Shown one piece after another: positions 6,568 through 51,439 of a DNA stretch of 51,439 nt (positions are counted from its first letter, which is position 1; every line of letters begins with the position of its first letter). This DNA comes from Bacteroidaceae bacterium (GTDB lineage: Bacteria > Bacteroidota > Bacteroidia > Bacteroidales > Bacteroidaceae). The stretch is from NCBI GenBank assembly GCA_024398435.1, contig JAKSJD010000014.1:1-51439 (forward strand), given 5' to 3'. A model generated the notes under the pieces. The model did not search any database and had not been told where the DNA came from. It worked only from the letters and a program-made list of their open reading frames with translations. The position numbers and the translations under genes are program-made.

Positions 6568-6709
6568 CGAATAAAAACGAAACCGAAGGCGAAAAAAGAT
6601 AATTTTTTTATCTTTTACCTACACATTTCGATGTTTGATTACATTTAGCAGCCTGCTTGAAAAGTTGAAACACATGGAAATATTTGTTGCCGTCAGTTGG
6701 ATAATAAAT

Positions 6710-6800
6710 CGTACTTAGGGTTTGGTACCATTGTACTTAATGTTAGGTACAATTGTACTCAACGTTTGGTACAATCGTACTTAGGGTTTGGTACAATTTA
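6710..6800. repeat. 22-bp-period array of GTAC palindromes
   Basis: Palindromic cores GTACCATTGTAC (6725-6736), GTACAATTGTAC (6747-6758, perfect dyad) and GTACAATCGTAC (6769-6780) have centres exactly 22 bases apart. A half core GTACAATT (6791-6798) is in phase, and a right half CGTAC at 6711-6715 is close to phase. The linkers share the form TTAATGTTAG / TCAACGTTTG / TTAGGGTTTG. Confidence 0.85.
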
Positions 6801-11881: not shown

Positions 11882-13429
11882 ATGATAGCAAAAATCCACT
11901 CCGCAGCCCTTCAGGGACTCAATGCCTTGCCCGTCACGATAGAAGTGAATGTGACCGACAATCCCCAACCCCATTTCGACATAGTAGGCTTGCCCGATGC
12001 AGCCGTGAAGGAAAGCCAGCACCGCGTGAATTCAGCACTTTCATCAAACAACTATAATTTGGTGATGAAGCAAATCATCGTGAATCTAGCCCCAGCCGAT
12101 ATCAAGAAGGAAGGCTCAGGATTCGACATGCCTATAGCCATCGGCATTCTTCAGTCGGTAGGCGTGATTCAGTCATCCGATTTCAGCCAGTATATGTTTG
12201 TTGGGGAATTGAGTCTTGATGGCACAATCCAGCCAATCCGTGGAGCACTCCCTATAGCCATCAAGGCAAGGGAAATGGGTTTTGAGGCCTTGTTCGTACC
12301 AGAAGAAAACGTAAGAGAAGCAGCTGTCGTCAACAAATTGAAAGTATATGGAGTGAAGCATCTGCTCGATGTAATAGGTTTCATAGAGGGCACCACACAC
12401 CTCGAACCAACTGACATCAATACACGCGAGGAATTCTATGCCCAGCAGAGTTCGTTCAGTTTCGATTTCGACGAAGTGAAAGGTCAGGAGCAAGTGAAGC
12501 GAGCATTCGAAGTAGCGGCAGCTGGCGGTCACAACATAATTCTCATCGGCAGTCCTGGATGTGGTAAATCAATGATGGCCAAGCGCTTGCCATCCATCCT
12601 CCCACCACTGTCACTCAGCGAAAGTCTTGAAACCACCCAAATCCACAGTGTGGCTGGAAAGATACAGAAAGAAACGTCACTCATCAGTCAGCGACCATTC
12701 CGTTCTCCTCATCACACGATTTCTGATGTTGCCTTAGTTGGAGGCGGCACCAACTTCCTCCCTGGTGAAATATGTTTGGCCCATAATGGGGTGCTCTTTC
12801 TCGACGAACTGCCAGAGTTCAATAAAAGCGTGCTTGAAACTCTTCGCCAACCATTGGAGGACCGAATCATAACGATTTCCCGAGCAAAGTATAATGTCAC
12901 GATGCCTTGTTCCTTCATGCTGGTAGCCAGTATGAATCCATGTCCATGTGGATATCATCATCATCCCACCCATGCCTGCGTTTGCACTCCTGCACAGATT
13001 CAGAGGTATATGAACAAAATCAGCGGACCTTTGATGGACCGAATCGACATTCAGGTAGAGGTGGAAAGTGTTCCGTTTGAGGACATTGCCAAGGCTCCGA
13101 AGGGAGAATCAAGCAGTGCAATCCGTGAGAGGGTAATCAAGGCAAGGAAGATACAGGAAGAACGATTCGCCAATGTGAAAGGCATCCACTGCAACGCCCA
13201 GATGAACACATCCCTGCTCCATAAATATGCAAAGCTCGACGATGCAAGCATCGAACGCCTTCGTGATGCCATGAAGCGTCTCGACCTCTCTGCCCGAGCA
13301 TACGACCGAATCTTAAAGGTAGCCCGAACCATTGCCGACCTTGATGGCTCTGAGGATATCCAGTCACGCCACATCGGCGAAGCCATCGGCTACAGAAACC
13401 TCGACCGTGAAAGTTGGATGGAGTGCTGA
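11882..13429 (+). CDS. comM: YifB/ComM-family Mg-chelatase-like AAA+ ATPase
   Basis: 515 residues in three parts: an N-terminal Lon-protease-like ChlI domain (residues 1-170, 'MPIAIGILQSVG'), an AAA+ core (Walker A 'GSPGCGKSMMAKR' from about residue 223, Walker B 'VLFLDELPEF'), and a C-terminal Mg-chelatase region that includes a cysteine/histidine cluster ('NPCPCGYHHHPTHACVC'), a probable metal-binding loop. ComM is known as a branch-migration helicase aiding integration of transforming DNA. Family assignment is firm, and a role in natural transformation here is inference. It is last in the dxs operon. An array of palindromes starts 6 bases after its stop codon. Confidence 0.93.
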   Translation: MIAKIHSAALQGLNALPVTIEVNVTDNPQPHFDIVGLPDAAVKESQHRVNSALSSNNYNLVMKQIIVNLAPADIKKEGSGFDMPIAIGILQSVGVIQSSDFSQYMFVGELSLDGTIQPIRGALPIAIKAREMGFEALFVPEENVREAAVVNKLKVYGVKHLLDVIGFIEGTTHLEPTDINTREEFYAQQSSFSFDFDEVKGQEQVKRAFEVAAAGGHNIILIGSPGCGKSMMAKRLPSILPPLSLSESLETTQIHSVAGKIQKETSLISQRPFRSPHHTISDVALVGGGTNFLPGEICLAHNGVLFLDELPEFNKSVLETLRQPLEDRIITISRAKYNVTMPCSFMLVASMNPCPCGYHHHPTHACVCTPAQIQRYMNKISGPLMDRIDIQVEVESVPFEDIAKAPKGESSSAIRERVIKARKIQEERFANVKGIHCNAQMNTSLLHKYAKLDDASIERLRDAMKRLDLSARAYDRILKVARTIADLDGSEDIQSRHIGEAIGYRNLDRESWMEC

Positions 13430-13434
13430 ATTCA

Positions 13435-13588
13435 AAACATCGCGGTGTTTAGGTCCAAGAAGCGCGCTTCATGACCTTACGAACCGCGGTTCGCGACCCA
13501 ATTTCTATTGATGTTTGACCTCATTTCTTATAAGACATGACCCCTTTTCTTATAATGTTTTGGGGCAAACCTTATAATGTTTTTTGGG
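13435..13588. repeat. seven-unit 22-bp array with a different palindromic core in each of the first units
   Basis: Cut at 22 bases from 13435, units 1-7 have cores centred at 13442.5, 13464.5, 13486.5, 13508.5, 13530.5, 13552.5 and 13574.5. Cores are AAACATCGCGGTGTTT (one mismatched pair), GAAGCGCGCTTC (perfect), CGAACCGCGGTTCG (perfect), a weak CTATTGATG, then CTTATAAG, CTTATAAT and CTTATAAT. The right end of units 1-5 keeps a GGTCC/GACCT/GACCC element. Confidence 0.85.
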
Positions 13589-13629: not shown

Positions 13630-13960
13630 TGCAAAAACCTGTCAGTTGTCAGTTTTTACTTCTAAATCATTGTAATATAGTGACTTAAGTGGCTGACAGG
13701 TTTCGCAAAACTTGTCAGTAACCTGTCAGCCATCCTTCAGCTTCTCAAACTCTCTTTTGAGATAGTTTTCTGCTCAATTTCTACAAATTATTTTGTCTTT
13801 TCAAATAAAAAACACAAATAGCACCTACTATTTATCAATATTCTGACTGACAGGTTGCTGACAAGTTGCTGACAAGTTTTGCGAAACCTGTCAGCCATCT
13901 AACAAACAGATACATAGAGAGTTATACCCCAAAACTGACAGGCTGACAAGTTTTTCACAA
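13630..13960. repeat. nested inverted repeat built of CTGACA/TGTCAG hexamers
   Basis: Inner arms: the 28 bases at 13691-13718 are the exact reverse complement of 13869-13896. Outer arms: two TGTCAG at 13640 and 13647 face CTGACA at 13935 and 13943. The right inner arm has CTGACA at 13847, 13858 and 13869 (11-base steps); the left has TGTCAG at 13713 and 13724 (11-base step). The AT-rich centre (13760-13840) has no gene. The rest of this gap up to 14050 has no recognisable feature. Confidence 0.8.
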
Positions 13961-14081: not shown

Positions 14082-14134
14082 CAAGCGATTAAAAGGTGTG
14101 TACCACATATTATTATAAAATATTAATTAAAAAC

Positions 14135-18474: not shown

Positions 18475-18851
18475 ATTTTTTTAAGTTTTAGCATTTTCGA
18501 CTGCAAAATTACACCTTATTTATTATTTATGCGTGCGTGATTTTGAACAAAGACGTACCACTTTTGTAACAAAATAGATTTTTGCCCCCAAAAACAACAA
18601 TTTTATGGTTTCTATTGCTCCAAAAACCATAATATCATGCATAGTTTTAATAATCCTGTCATAATTAATAAAAATATTGACATAATTAATATTAATCATG
18701 TACATAATCATTAATAATATTGTACAATATTTTACTTTTAGAACAATAGAAAAATTGTTTCGGAGCGCGGATAAACAACTTTTTCAGCCAAATATTTTGT
18801 GTTTCGCTCGATTTATACTATCTTTGTACCTCAAAACAAAAGATAAAGGAA
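18475..18851. other. divergent intergenic region between GH31 and pectinesterase
   Basis: Very AT-rich with no gene. A hairpin TTATGGTTT...AAACCATAA lies at 18603-18632; dense TAATTAAT-type runs fill 18660-18720. The pectinesterase promoter is at its right end. Confidence 0.5.
18796..18826 (+). promoter_or_regulatory. promoter of the pectinesterase gene
   Basis: TTTG at 18796-18799 and TATCTTTG at 18819-18826 with a 19-base spacer, 25 bases before the start codon. Confidence 0.75.
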
Positions 18852-43332: not shown

Positions 43333-43404
43333 AATCTTTAGAACCTCTAGGAACCCTAGAGCCTCTAGAATCCCTAGAATTTCTAGGGCCCCTAGAAGAA
43401 ATAG
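43333..43404. repeat. 8 x 9-bp array, units ending in CTAG
   Basis: Nine-base units in register: AATCTTTAG, AACCTCTAG, GAACCCTAG, AGCCTCTAG, AATCCCTAG, AATTTCTAG, GGCCCCTAG, AAGAAATAG. It begins 6 bases after the DUF4294 stop and ends 23 bases before the GH2 start. Confidence 0.88.
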
Positions 43405-51059: not shown

Positions 51060-51395
51060 TACAACTTCACTTCTAATATAGATAGAACTTTTAAAGGTGG
51101 AAGTGAATGTGTTGCCAATGGAACATATATTCGTTTAAATAATGACGAGTATAAATTGTGTGTCTCTAATACAAGTTCCTACAACGACAAATACAATGAA
51201 TTGCTTATCAAAAACGATTCAATCCATGGGTTCAATGGTTTATCATATTCTTTAGTTCAGTACAGGGGTGGAGCGCACGGCGTCTCCACCCCTAATGCTC
51301 TTTTGACATACGGCGTTCCGATGCATGTGCGCACCATAGGACAGAGGAACGCGTCGTCGTCGATAACTTATAATGTTTGGGGTCATTTATTATAA
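51060..51395 (+). pseudogene. open frame continuing in phase after the lipoprotein stop, running into repeats
   Basis: From the codon after the TAA at 51057-51059 the frame is open to a TAA at 51393-51395. Its first 65 or so codons are protein-like ('RTFKGGSECVANGTYIRLNN', 'SYNDKYNELLIKNDSIHGFN'); from about 51262 it is coded by hairpins and palindrome repeats ('GGAHGVSTP', 'YNVWGHLL'). It has no good start codon. Either a nonsense mutation cut a longer lipoprotein, or this is the tail of a lost second gene. Confidence 0.45.
51264..51352. repeat. two GC-rich hairpins preceding the terminal array
   Basis: Perfect 10-bp stem AGGGGTGGAG / CTCCACCCCT (51264-51273, 51284-51293) with a 10-base loop, and stem GCGTTCC / GGAACGC (51313-51319, 51346-51352). 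The GC-rich composition contrasts with the AT-rich frame before it. Confidence 0.75.
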
Positions 51396-51439
51396 GACAT
51401 GAGGCAATTCCTTATAATGTTTGGTCCCTTTTCTTATAA
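51363..51439. repeat. 22-bp-period TTATAA array, cut by the window end
   Basis: TTATAA centred at 51370.5, 51392.5, 51414.5 and 51436.5, exact 22-base steps. Units read ACTTATAATGTTTGGGGTC, ATTATAAGACATGAGGCA, CCTTATAATGTTTGGTCCC and CTTATAA at the edge. They correspond to units 5-7 of the 13.4-kb array. Confidence 0.85.

Follow-up and report, generated by a model that had tools for sequence, protein, structure and literature searches.

Intergenic arrays with a 22-bp step and often palindromic units in a Bacteroidaceae genome and its relatives

Iteron arrays of plasmid origins consist of direct repeats about two helical turns apart, by which Rep proteins are lined up. Iterons belong to one origin and lie beside a rep gene, whereas the arrays described here were found at dozens of places beside unrelated genes. 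Bacterial minisatellites (VNTRs) are made of tandem units of fixed length; in contrast, unrelated families share the unit length here, and the palindromic cores of Candidatus Colivivens caballi recur with differing linkers. No description of 22-bp palindrome lattices was found in the open-access literature, most subscription papers and all preprints lying outside the search.

REP elements are high-copy, short, palindromic and mostly extragenic, are sometimes clustered, and form species-distinct families; they carry a GTAG or CGTC tag, and the RAYT transposase is tied to the GTAG REPs (PMC3733652, available parts). The arrays studied here resemble REP and BIME in being high-copy, short and outside genes, in containing palindromes, and in forming species-distinct families (same parts of PMC3733652). 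The TTATAA units of family 1 (the family of the array under study) and the units of family 3 are only partly palindromic. The arrays differ in that GTAG, CTAC, CGTC, and GACG occur in 0 of 144 family-1 units, the other families having been compared by eye only. The step is fixed at 22 bp, and no such step is described for REP or BIME in the available parts of PMC3733652. Unlike for GTAG-class REPs, no RAYT was found in the draft genome carrying the array (77.6% complete) or in four other carriers.

BrickBuilt, a MITE of Porphyromonas gingivalis, has a 23-nt unit with the consensus AGAYCATARTATCCTCTCRTRTG, and its leader and tail carry terminal inverted repeats that resemble those of further elements in P. 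gingivalis (PMC4596501, available parts). Like BrickBuilt, the arrays are dispersed and contain a minisatellite whose unit spans about two turns of the helix. A relationship to BrickBuilt, mentioned and left unclaimed in the original prediction, was unsupported: the step here is 22, against 23 nt, and the units, compared by eye, differ from the consensus given in the available parts of that source.

The focal array and its family

The DNA analyzed (the window) was a contig of 51,439 nt (C6) from a 2.32-Mb draft genome (G000, the own genome). The focal array, at positions 13435–13588, begins 6 bases past the stop codon at which a ComM-like Mg-chelatase gene (11882–13429; Pfam) ends, and a 152-aa reading frame at 14096, downstream of it, is one which we take to be RidA. 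Written in lines of 22, the array shows seven units with an exact 22-bp step, each with a 16-bp core and a 6-bp linker (Table 1). Identity at lag 22 was 0.545, against 0.14–0.36 at each of the remaining lags in the range 10–40, and was reached by 0 of 5000 Markov-1 shuffles, either at lag 22 or at any lag of 15–30. A lattice of six dyads scored 26 of 36 pairs at period 22 and 14–17 at the other periods from 15 to 25; a score of 26 was obtained in 0 of 5000 shuffles at period 22 and in 0 of 1500 at any period of 15–25. The array was absent from the list of Tandem Repeats Finder at score 30 because it is highly divergent.

The seven units and the exact step had been noted beforehand and were confirmed by these values, as were the linkers GGTCC, GACCT, and GACCC at fixed places and the palindromes of differing sequence in units 1–3 (5, 6, and 6 of 6 inner pairs). 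The further claim that every unit carries its own palindrome held for five of the seven (units 1–3, 5, and 7; 5–6 of 6 inner pairs) and failed for units 4 and 6, which are not dyads.

Table 1. Repeats located in the window, with positions counted from its first base
Position	Feature	Sequence	Remarks
6708..6799	Family 2 array	GTACTTAnnnTTTGGTAC + RATY type; four units, 22 bp each	13 places in own genome
13435..13456	Focal array, unit 1	Core AAACATCGCGGTGTTT + linker AGGTCC	Dyad, 5/6 inner pairs
13457..13478	Focal array, unit 2	Core AAGAAGCGCGCTTCAT + linker GACCTT	Dyad, 6/6
13479..13500	Focal array, unit 3	Core ACGAACCGCGGTTCGC + linker GACCCA	Dyad, 6/6
13501..13522	Focal array, unit 4	Core ATTTCTATTGATGTTT + linker GACCTC	Non-palindromic, 1/6
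13523..13544	Focal array, unit 5	Core ATTTCTTATAAGACAT + linker GACCCC	Dyad, 5/6
13545..13566	Focal array, unit 6	Core TTTTCTTATAATGTTT + linker TGGGGC	Weak, 3/6
13567..13588	Focal array, unit 7	Core AAACCTTATAATGTTT + TTTGGG	Dyad, 5/6; array end
13636..13950	Words after the focal array	AACCTGTCAG / CTGACAGGTT	Several copies
18648..18726	Family 3 array	GTACATAATTATTAATAATATT type	21–22 bp steps; at least 31 places in own genome
35535..35614	Tandem repeat, period 24 (sub-period 8)	AACTCTTGAACTTTTCATCTCTTG	3.3 copies
43339..43397	Tandem repeat, period 18	TAGAACCTCTAGGAACCC	3.3 copies
51362..51439	Second family-1 array	TTATAA units	Truncated by the contig end; match C6:51373-51422; in-phase view (L018)

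The focal array belongs to a dispersed family restricted to the species, family 1, which was found by BLAST at 29 or more places in the own genome. The 29 places were obtained by merging 38 BLAST matches by eye and are a lower bound, since 40 of 52 candidates were scored; 24 places were viewed in phase. Of 25 loci, 24 had 22 as their strongest local lag; at L008, lag 29 came just ahead of 22. By eye, the half-words of the family were AAACAT, ATTTCT, CGAACC, CGAAGC, and their complements, the unit centres were TATA, CGCG, CTAT, or ATTG, and the linkers included GACCTC, GACCCC, GAGGTC, GGGGTC, and AGTGCC. The commonest TTATAA unit of the own genome, also by eye, was the asymmetric word ATTTCTTATAATGTTT around a 6-bp TTATAA.

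Several copies have one order in common, with CGCG cores followed by CTATAG or TATTGA cores and then by TTATAA cores. The original prediction had held that unlike dyads at one spacing exclude copying, and this was unsupported: given the shared order, the copies are accounted for if a composite element was copied, which does not account for how the composite arose. In some copies, blocks are set apart by a spacer of about 35 bp. In the own genome, distances between TTATAA cores were 0 modulo 22 in 106 of 153 cases. Distances between TTATAA and CGCG cores (n = 250) were 0 modulo 22 in 39 cases and peaked at 7–9 (84) and 14–15 (45). In some family-1 copies the GC-core block is thus out of register with the TTATAA block, which counts against the model of a row.

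A hairpin word like TTGCAAAGTTTTGCTTTGCAA was seen at the edge of several family-1 arrays (L015, L016, L017, L028), and TGTCAG words flank other arrays of the family as well (L002, L009, L029). Besides the window, contigs C11 and C27 end close to a family-1 array, and such contig ends in or near arrays mean that the repeats may break the assembly.

By sequence, family 1 was matched in 0 of 20 relatives, in none of 16 other genomes of the genus, and in no plasmid or phage, and a pattern search of genome contigs returned 0 matches. Among 399 genomes of the family Bacteroidaceae, six matched, including the own genome, and the other five had no 22-bp array in phase. In IMG/VR, at least 50 stretches had three TTATAA at 22-bp steps; 18 of 50 were read in phase, none with family-1 words, and some of the 18 were 11- or 22-bp repeats of other sequence. 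The comM region was compared in 12 relatives: no array was seen by eye in the DNA after comM in five plus-strand relatives, and the seven minus-strand stretches fall inside comM and are uninformative.

Spacing and symmetry in other families and genomes

Two further families of the own genome, unrelated in sequence to family 1, share its 22-bp step. In family 2 the strongest local lag was 22 at 13 of 13 loci; 12 of these 13 rows were aligned, L413 at a contig end being left out. Family 3 is an element of about 200 bp, a few of whose places are weak, and nine copies were aligned; its leading lag was 22 at 24 of 28 loci, 21 at three, and 14 at one. The 16 other genomes of the genus gave no match for family 2 and a single weak match (G008) for family 3.

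A census blind to palindromes was made of intergenic segments (tandem identity in 30 or more of 44 columns, lags 12–60, short-period repeats removed). In these samples, which were small and over-represented contig starts, lag 22 accounted for 43 of 75 arrays over 15 sample groups: 16 of 22 in the own genome, 23 of 38 in relatives of the same genus, 4 of 11 in four other genera, and 0 of 4 in four other families. Within the census, 14 kb of intergenic DNA from G011 yielded no array, and G007 had lag 22 in two of eight arrays; before the short-period filter, G007 had more arrays at lags 16, 24, and 32, and the own genome several repeats at lag 21. In 20 further genomes, taken from the family without regard to genus, lag 22 was found in 3 of 11 arrays, lag 21 in two, and lag 44 in one. 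Clustering of 86 intergenic arrays from the own genome and the sampled relatives gave 67 sequence clusters, 30 of them with modal lag 22, followed by lag 44 (six) and lags 18 and 21 (five each). When the focal array and the second family-1 array, at 51362, were added by hand, the 88 arrays gave lag 22 in 31 of 68 clusters. The 22-bp step is common to many families unrelated in sequence, in the genus and, more thinly, in the bacterial family.

Exact palindromes with arms of at least 5 were collected from the intergenic samples, and their commonest centre spacing was 22. The excess of 22-bp-phased palindromes expected in the original prediction was present: five pairs at 22 in the own genome with the window removed, where the other lags averaged 0.74, and 16 pairs at 22 and 15 at 44 in relatives of the same genus, against a mean of 0.83 at the other lags. 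Shuffles gave 0.1 pairs at 22, coding DNA 0, other genera one, and other families 0. With arms of 4 and the window included, lag 22 led with 15 pairs in a weaker contrast, lags 11, 14, 16, 17, 19, and 38 reaching 10–12, all above shuffles.

Consensus units of the first census were palindromic at p < 0.05 in 13 of 43 arrays at lag 22 and in 0 of 32 at other lags. Two looser measures weakened this contrast (11/43 vs 2/32 and 11/43 vs 3/32; Fisher 0.03 and 0.13). The remaining 30 of the 43 lag-22 consensus units (about 70%) had no significant palindrome.

A search of GTDB species genomes for GTGTACAC at a 22-bp step gave at least 118 stretches. Among the 80 loci listed, 29 were from Candidatus Colivivens caballi, 16 from Bacteroidaceae RGIG10016, nine from Bacteroidales S28M_St_metabat_126, two from a Porphyromonas MAG, and 24 were single matches, a number that chance could give (about 60 chance matches are expected, by estimate, in 257 Gb of even composition). 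Among those viewed, the single matches resembling short arrays came from Paraprevotella, Tannerellaceae, Bacteroidia, and Bacteroidaceae MAGs. Contig C1 of G012 was identical to a C. caballi record over 4704 bases, which identifies G012 as C. caballi. Both C. caballi elements viewed consist of a GAGCGCTC-like block, a GGTGTACACC block, and a GAGCGCTC-like block. The distances between GTGTACAC and GAGCGCTC (centres within 260 bp, 31 loci, one mismatch allowed in GAGCGCTC) were 0 (251) or 1 (132) modulo 22 in 383 of 383 pairs, which are not independent and descend from few ancestral elements. The linkers vary from unit to unit. Within an element of C. caballi, unlike cores hold one register.

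A scan of the order (393 genomes) found no copies of GTGTACAC spaced 22 bp apart. Pairs of GTGTACAC with 2–30 bases between them numbered seven, in five of these genomes; five pairs were at a 21-bp step (three in G615, and one each in G695 and G679) and the remaining two at 13 and 30. The 21-bp pairs, which are again two turns apart, belong to two other families of the order and have differing linkers (L426-L428). A further palindrome, GAGTTAACTC, has three copies with a 22-bp step next to a different array (L351, 1344–1400).

Covariation of the arms was measured against shuffled partners in six unit sets from four genomes, five of them rerun with stricter removal of duplicates; pairs were taken within units only, and the copies compared were those within genomes, not strains. 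The sole position above 95% of shuffles was pair 6 of S28M (16/16, shuffled mean 9.1), and the next best, pair 3 of the own CGCG units, was reached by 161 of 2000 shuffles. Among the 69 TTATAA units, arm pairs 4, 6, and 7 paired in 13, 15, and 16, where shuffles gave means of 33, 29, and 32. Several arm pairs thus lie far below shuffles, which indicates that the units are directional. The idea that symmetry is selected while the bases change found no support in these numbers, and compensatory change as proof of it was rejected, the arm pairs being without covariation except for S28M pair 6. Units of one family have largely the same core, and cores vary from one family to the next.

Spread of the elements and reading of the arrays

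Unrelated arrays on a 22-base step, often palindromic, suggest rows of putative protein-binding sites, and the modular array of sites two helical turns apart that had been proposed for the locus fits these data. Our preferred reading, put forward tentatively, is that of REP/MITE-like dispersed elements built as rows of putative dimer-binding sites two helical turns apart.

A somewhat unlikely competitor is that of selfish miniature elements with no host role, whose bricks would be binding sites of a transposase or recombinase acting in trans, the step reflecting the enzyme. High copy number, species-specific families, fairly sharp ends, and intergenic positions among unrelated genes agree with it, as does a three-palindrome element of roughly 130 bp that recurs at many places in G005 and G010. 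The copies are dispersed with unrelated flanks, families 2 and 3 keeping some similar near-flank words. On the other side, no terminal inverted repeats or target duplications were seen by eye in the copy alignments (L354 and L364, at contig ends, left out). No transposase was present among the 25 listed of the 125 Pfam families matched by 91 flanking proteins (of 116; the other 25, mostly short, were left out). The REP transposase PF01797 (Y1_Tnp) had no match in G000, G005, G006, G021, or G024, all drafts with arrays. Several unrelated families per genome would also need one enzyme each, or one tolerant enzyme. PF01797 matched in 6 of 17 genomes of the genus, including the array carriers G012, G010, and G007; it was rejected as the mover, as it was not found in several carriers.

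The element of G005 and G010 begins with ATACTGTCAGAAA (compare the TGTCAG words beside family-1 arrays). A 1758-base piece containing it (L348/L349) is 98.4% identical between the two genomes, against 82% for the comM region; this reflects either a recent transfer or mixed-up contigs in one draft.

The genes beside the arrays were varied: no Pfam family occurred in more than two of the 91 flanking proteins, and a shared gene function, considered as a candidate, was not seen among them. Family 2 lay between divergent genes in 8 of 12 cases, and 20 of its 24 flanks were gene starts, against 342 of 614 in the background. Families 1 and 3 occupied mixed gaps with no clear difference from the background, which argues against a general promoter role.

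It is quite unlikely that the step comes from a duplication bias, by which replication slippage or repair would favour 22-bp tandem duplications and template switching would produce or preserve the palindromes, with no protein row. Such a bias would suit the many lag-22 arrays without a strong palindrome and the TTATAA units of family 1, which are asymmetric direct repeats. The palindromes of C. caballi tell against it: they stand at 22 bp with differing linkers, and direct duplication would copy the linkers too; in addition, two unrelated palindromes share the register there. A role as RNA, in which a row of small transcript hairpins would serve stability or termination, is highly improbable: in folding, the focal array surpasses its shuffles (z = −3.2; 1/200 as good), but its predicted fold is not one hairpin per unit, many units are asymmetric, the arm pairs lack covariation, Rfam at gathering scores found only a tRNA in the window and no family matching the array, and arrays occur in divergent, codirectional, and convergent gaps.

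Under the preferred reading of rows of dimer-binding sites, the focal array would be one copy of a dispersed intergenic REP/MITE-like element made of 22-bp bricks. A brick would be a core of about 8–16 bp, often dyad-symmetric, with a short linker, its length being two turns of the helix. A symmetric protein dimer would occupy each core, and neighbouring dimers, placed on one face of the DNA by the fixed step, may touch and form a row. Binding specificity, and hence core sequence, would turn over between species as the geometry stays, and the elements would spread within each genome through some form of copying. The effect of the bound row would be on DNA shape, recombination, or promoters close by, and not on one regulon. 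It is rather doubtful that a conserved machine of the bacterial family lies behind all this, that is, a class of DNA-coating or recombining protein which occupies dyads at exact 22-bp steps, changes its specificity fast between species, and is recorded in each genome as several unrelated families of palindromic bricks.

Repeats are normally related by sequence, and the families described here share only an exact step of two turns and often a dyad. A step common to unrelated families in many species of one group suggests that a physical constraint is at work, the simplest being a protein that occupies the DNA at regular intervals. Were such a protein found, many of the repeats between genes in these gut bacteria would be accounted for, and it would exemplify DNA recognition that changes quickly while its geometry stays the same.
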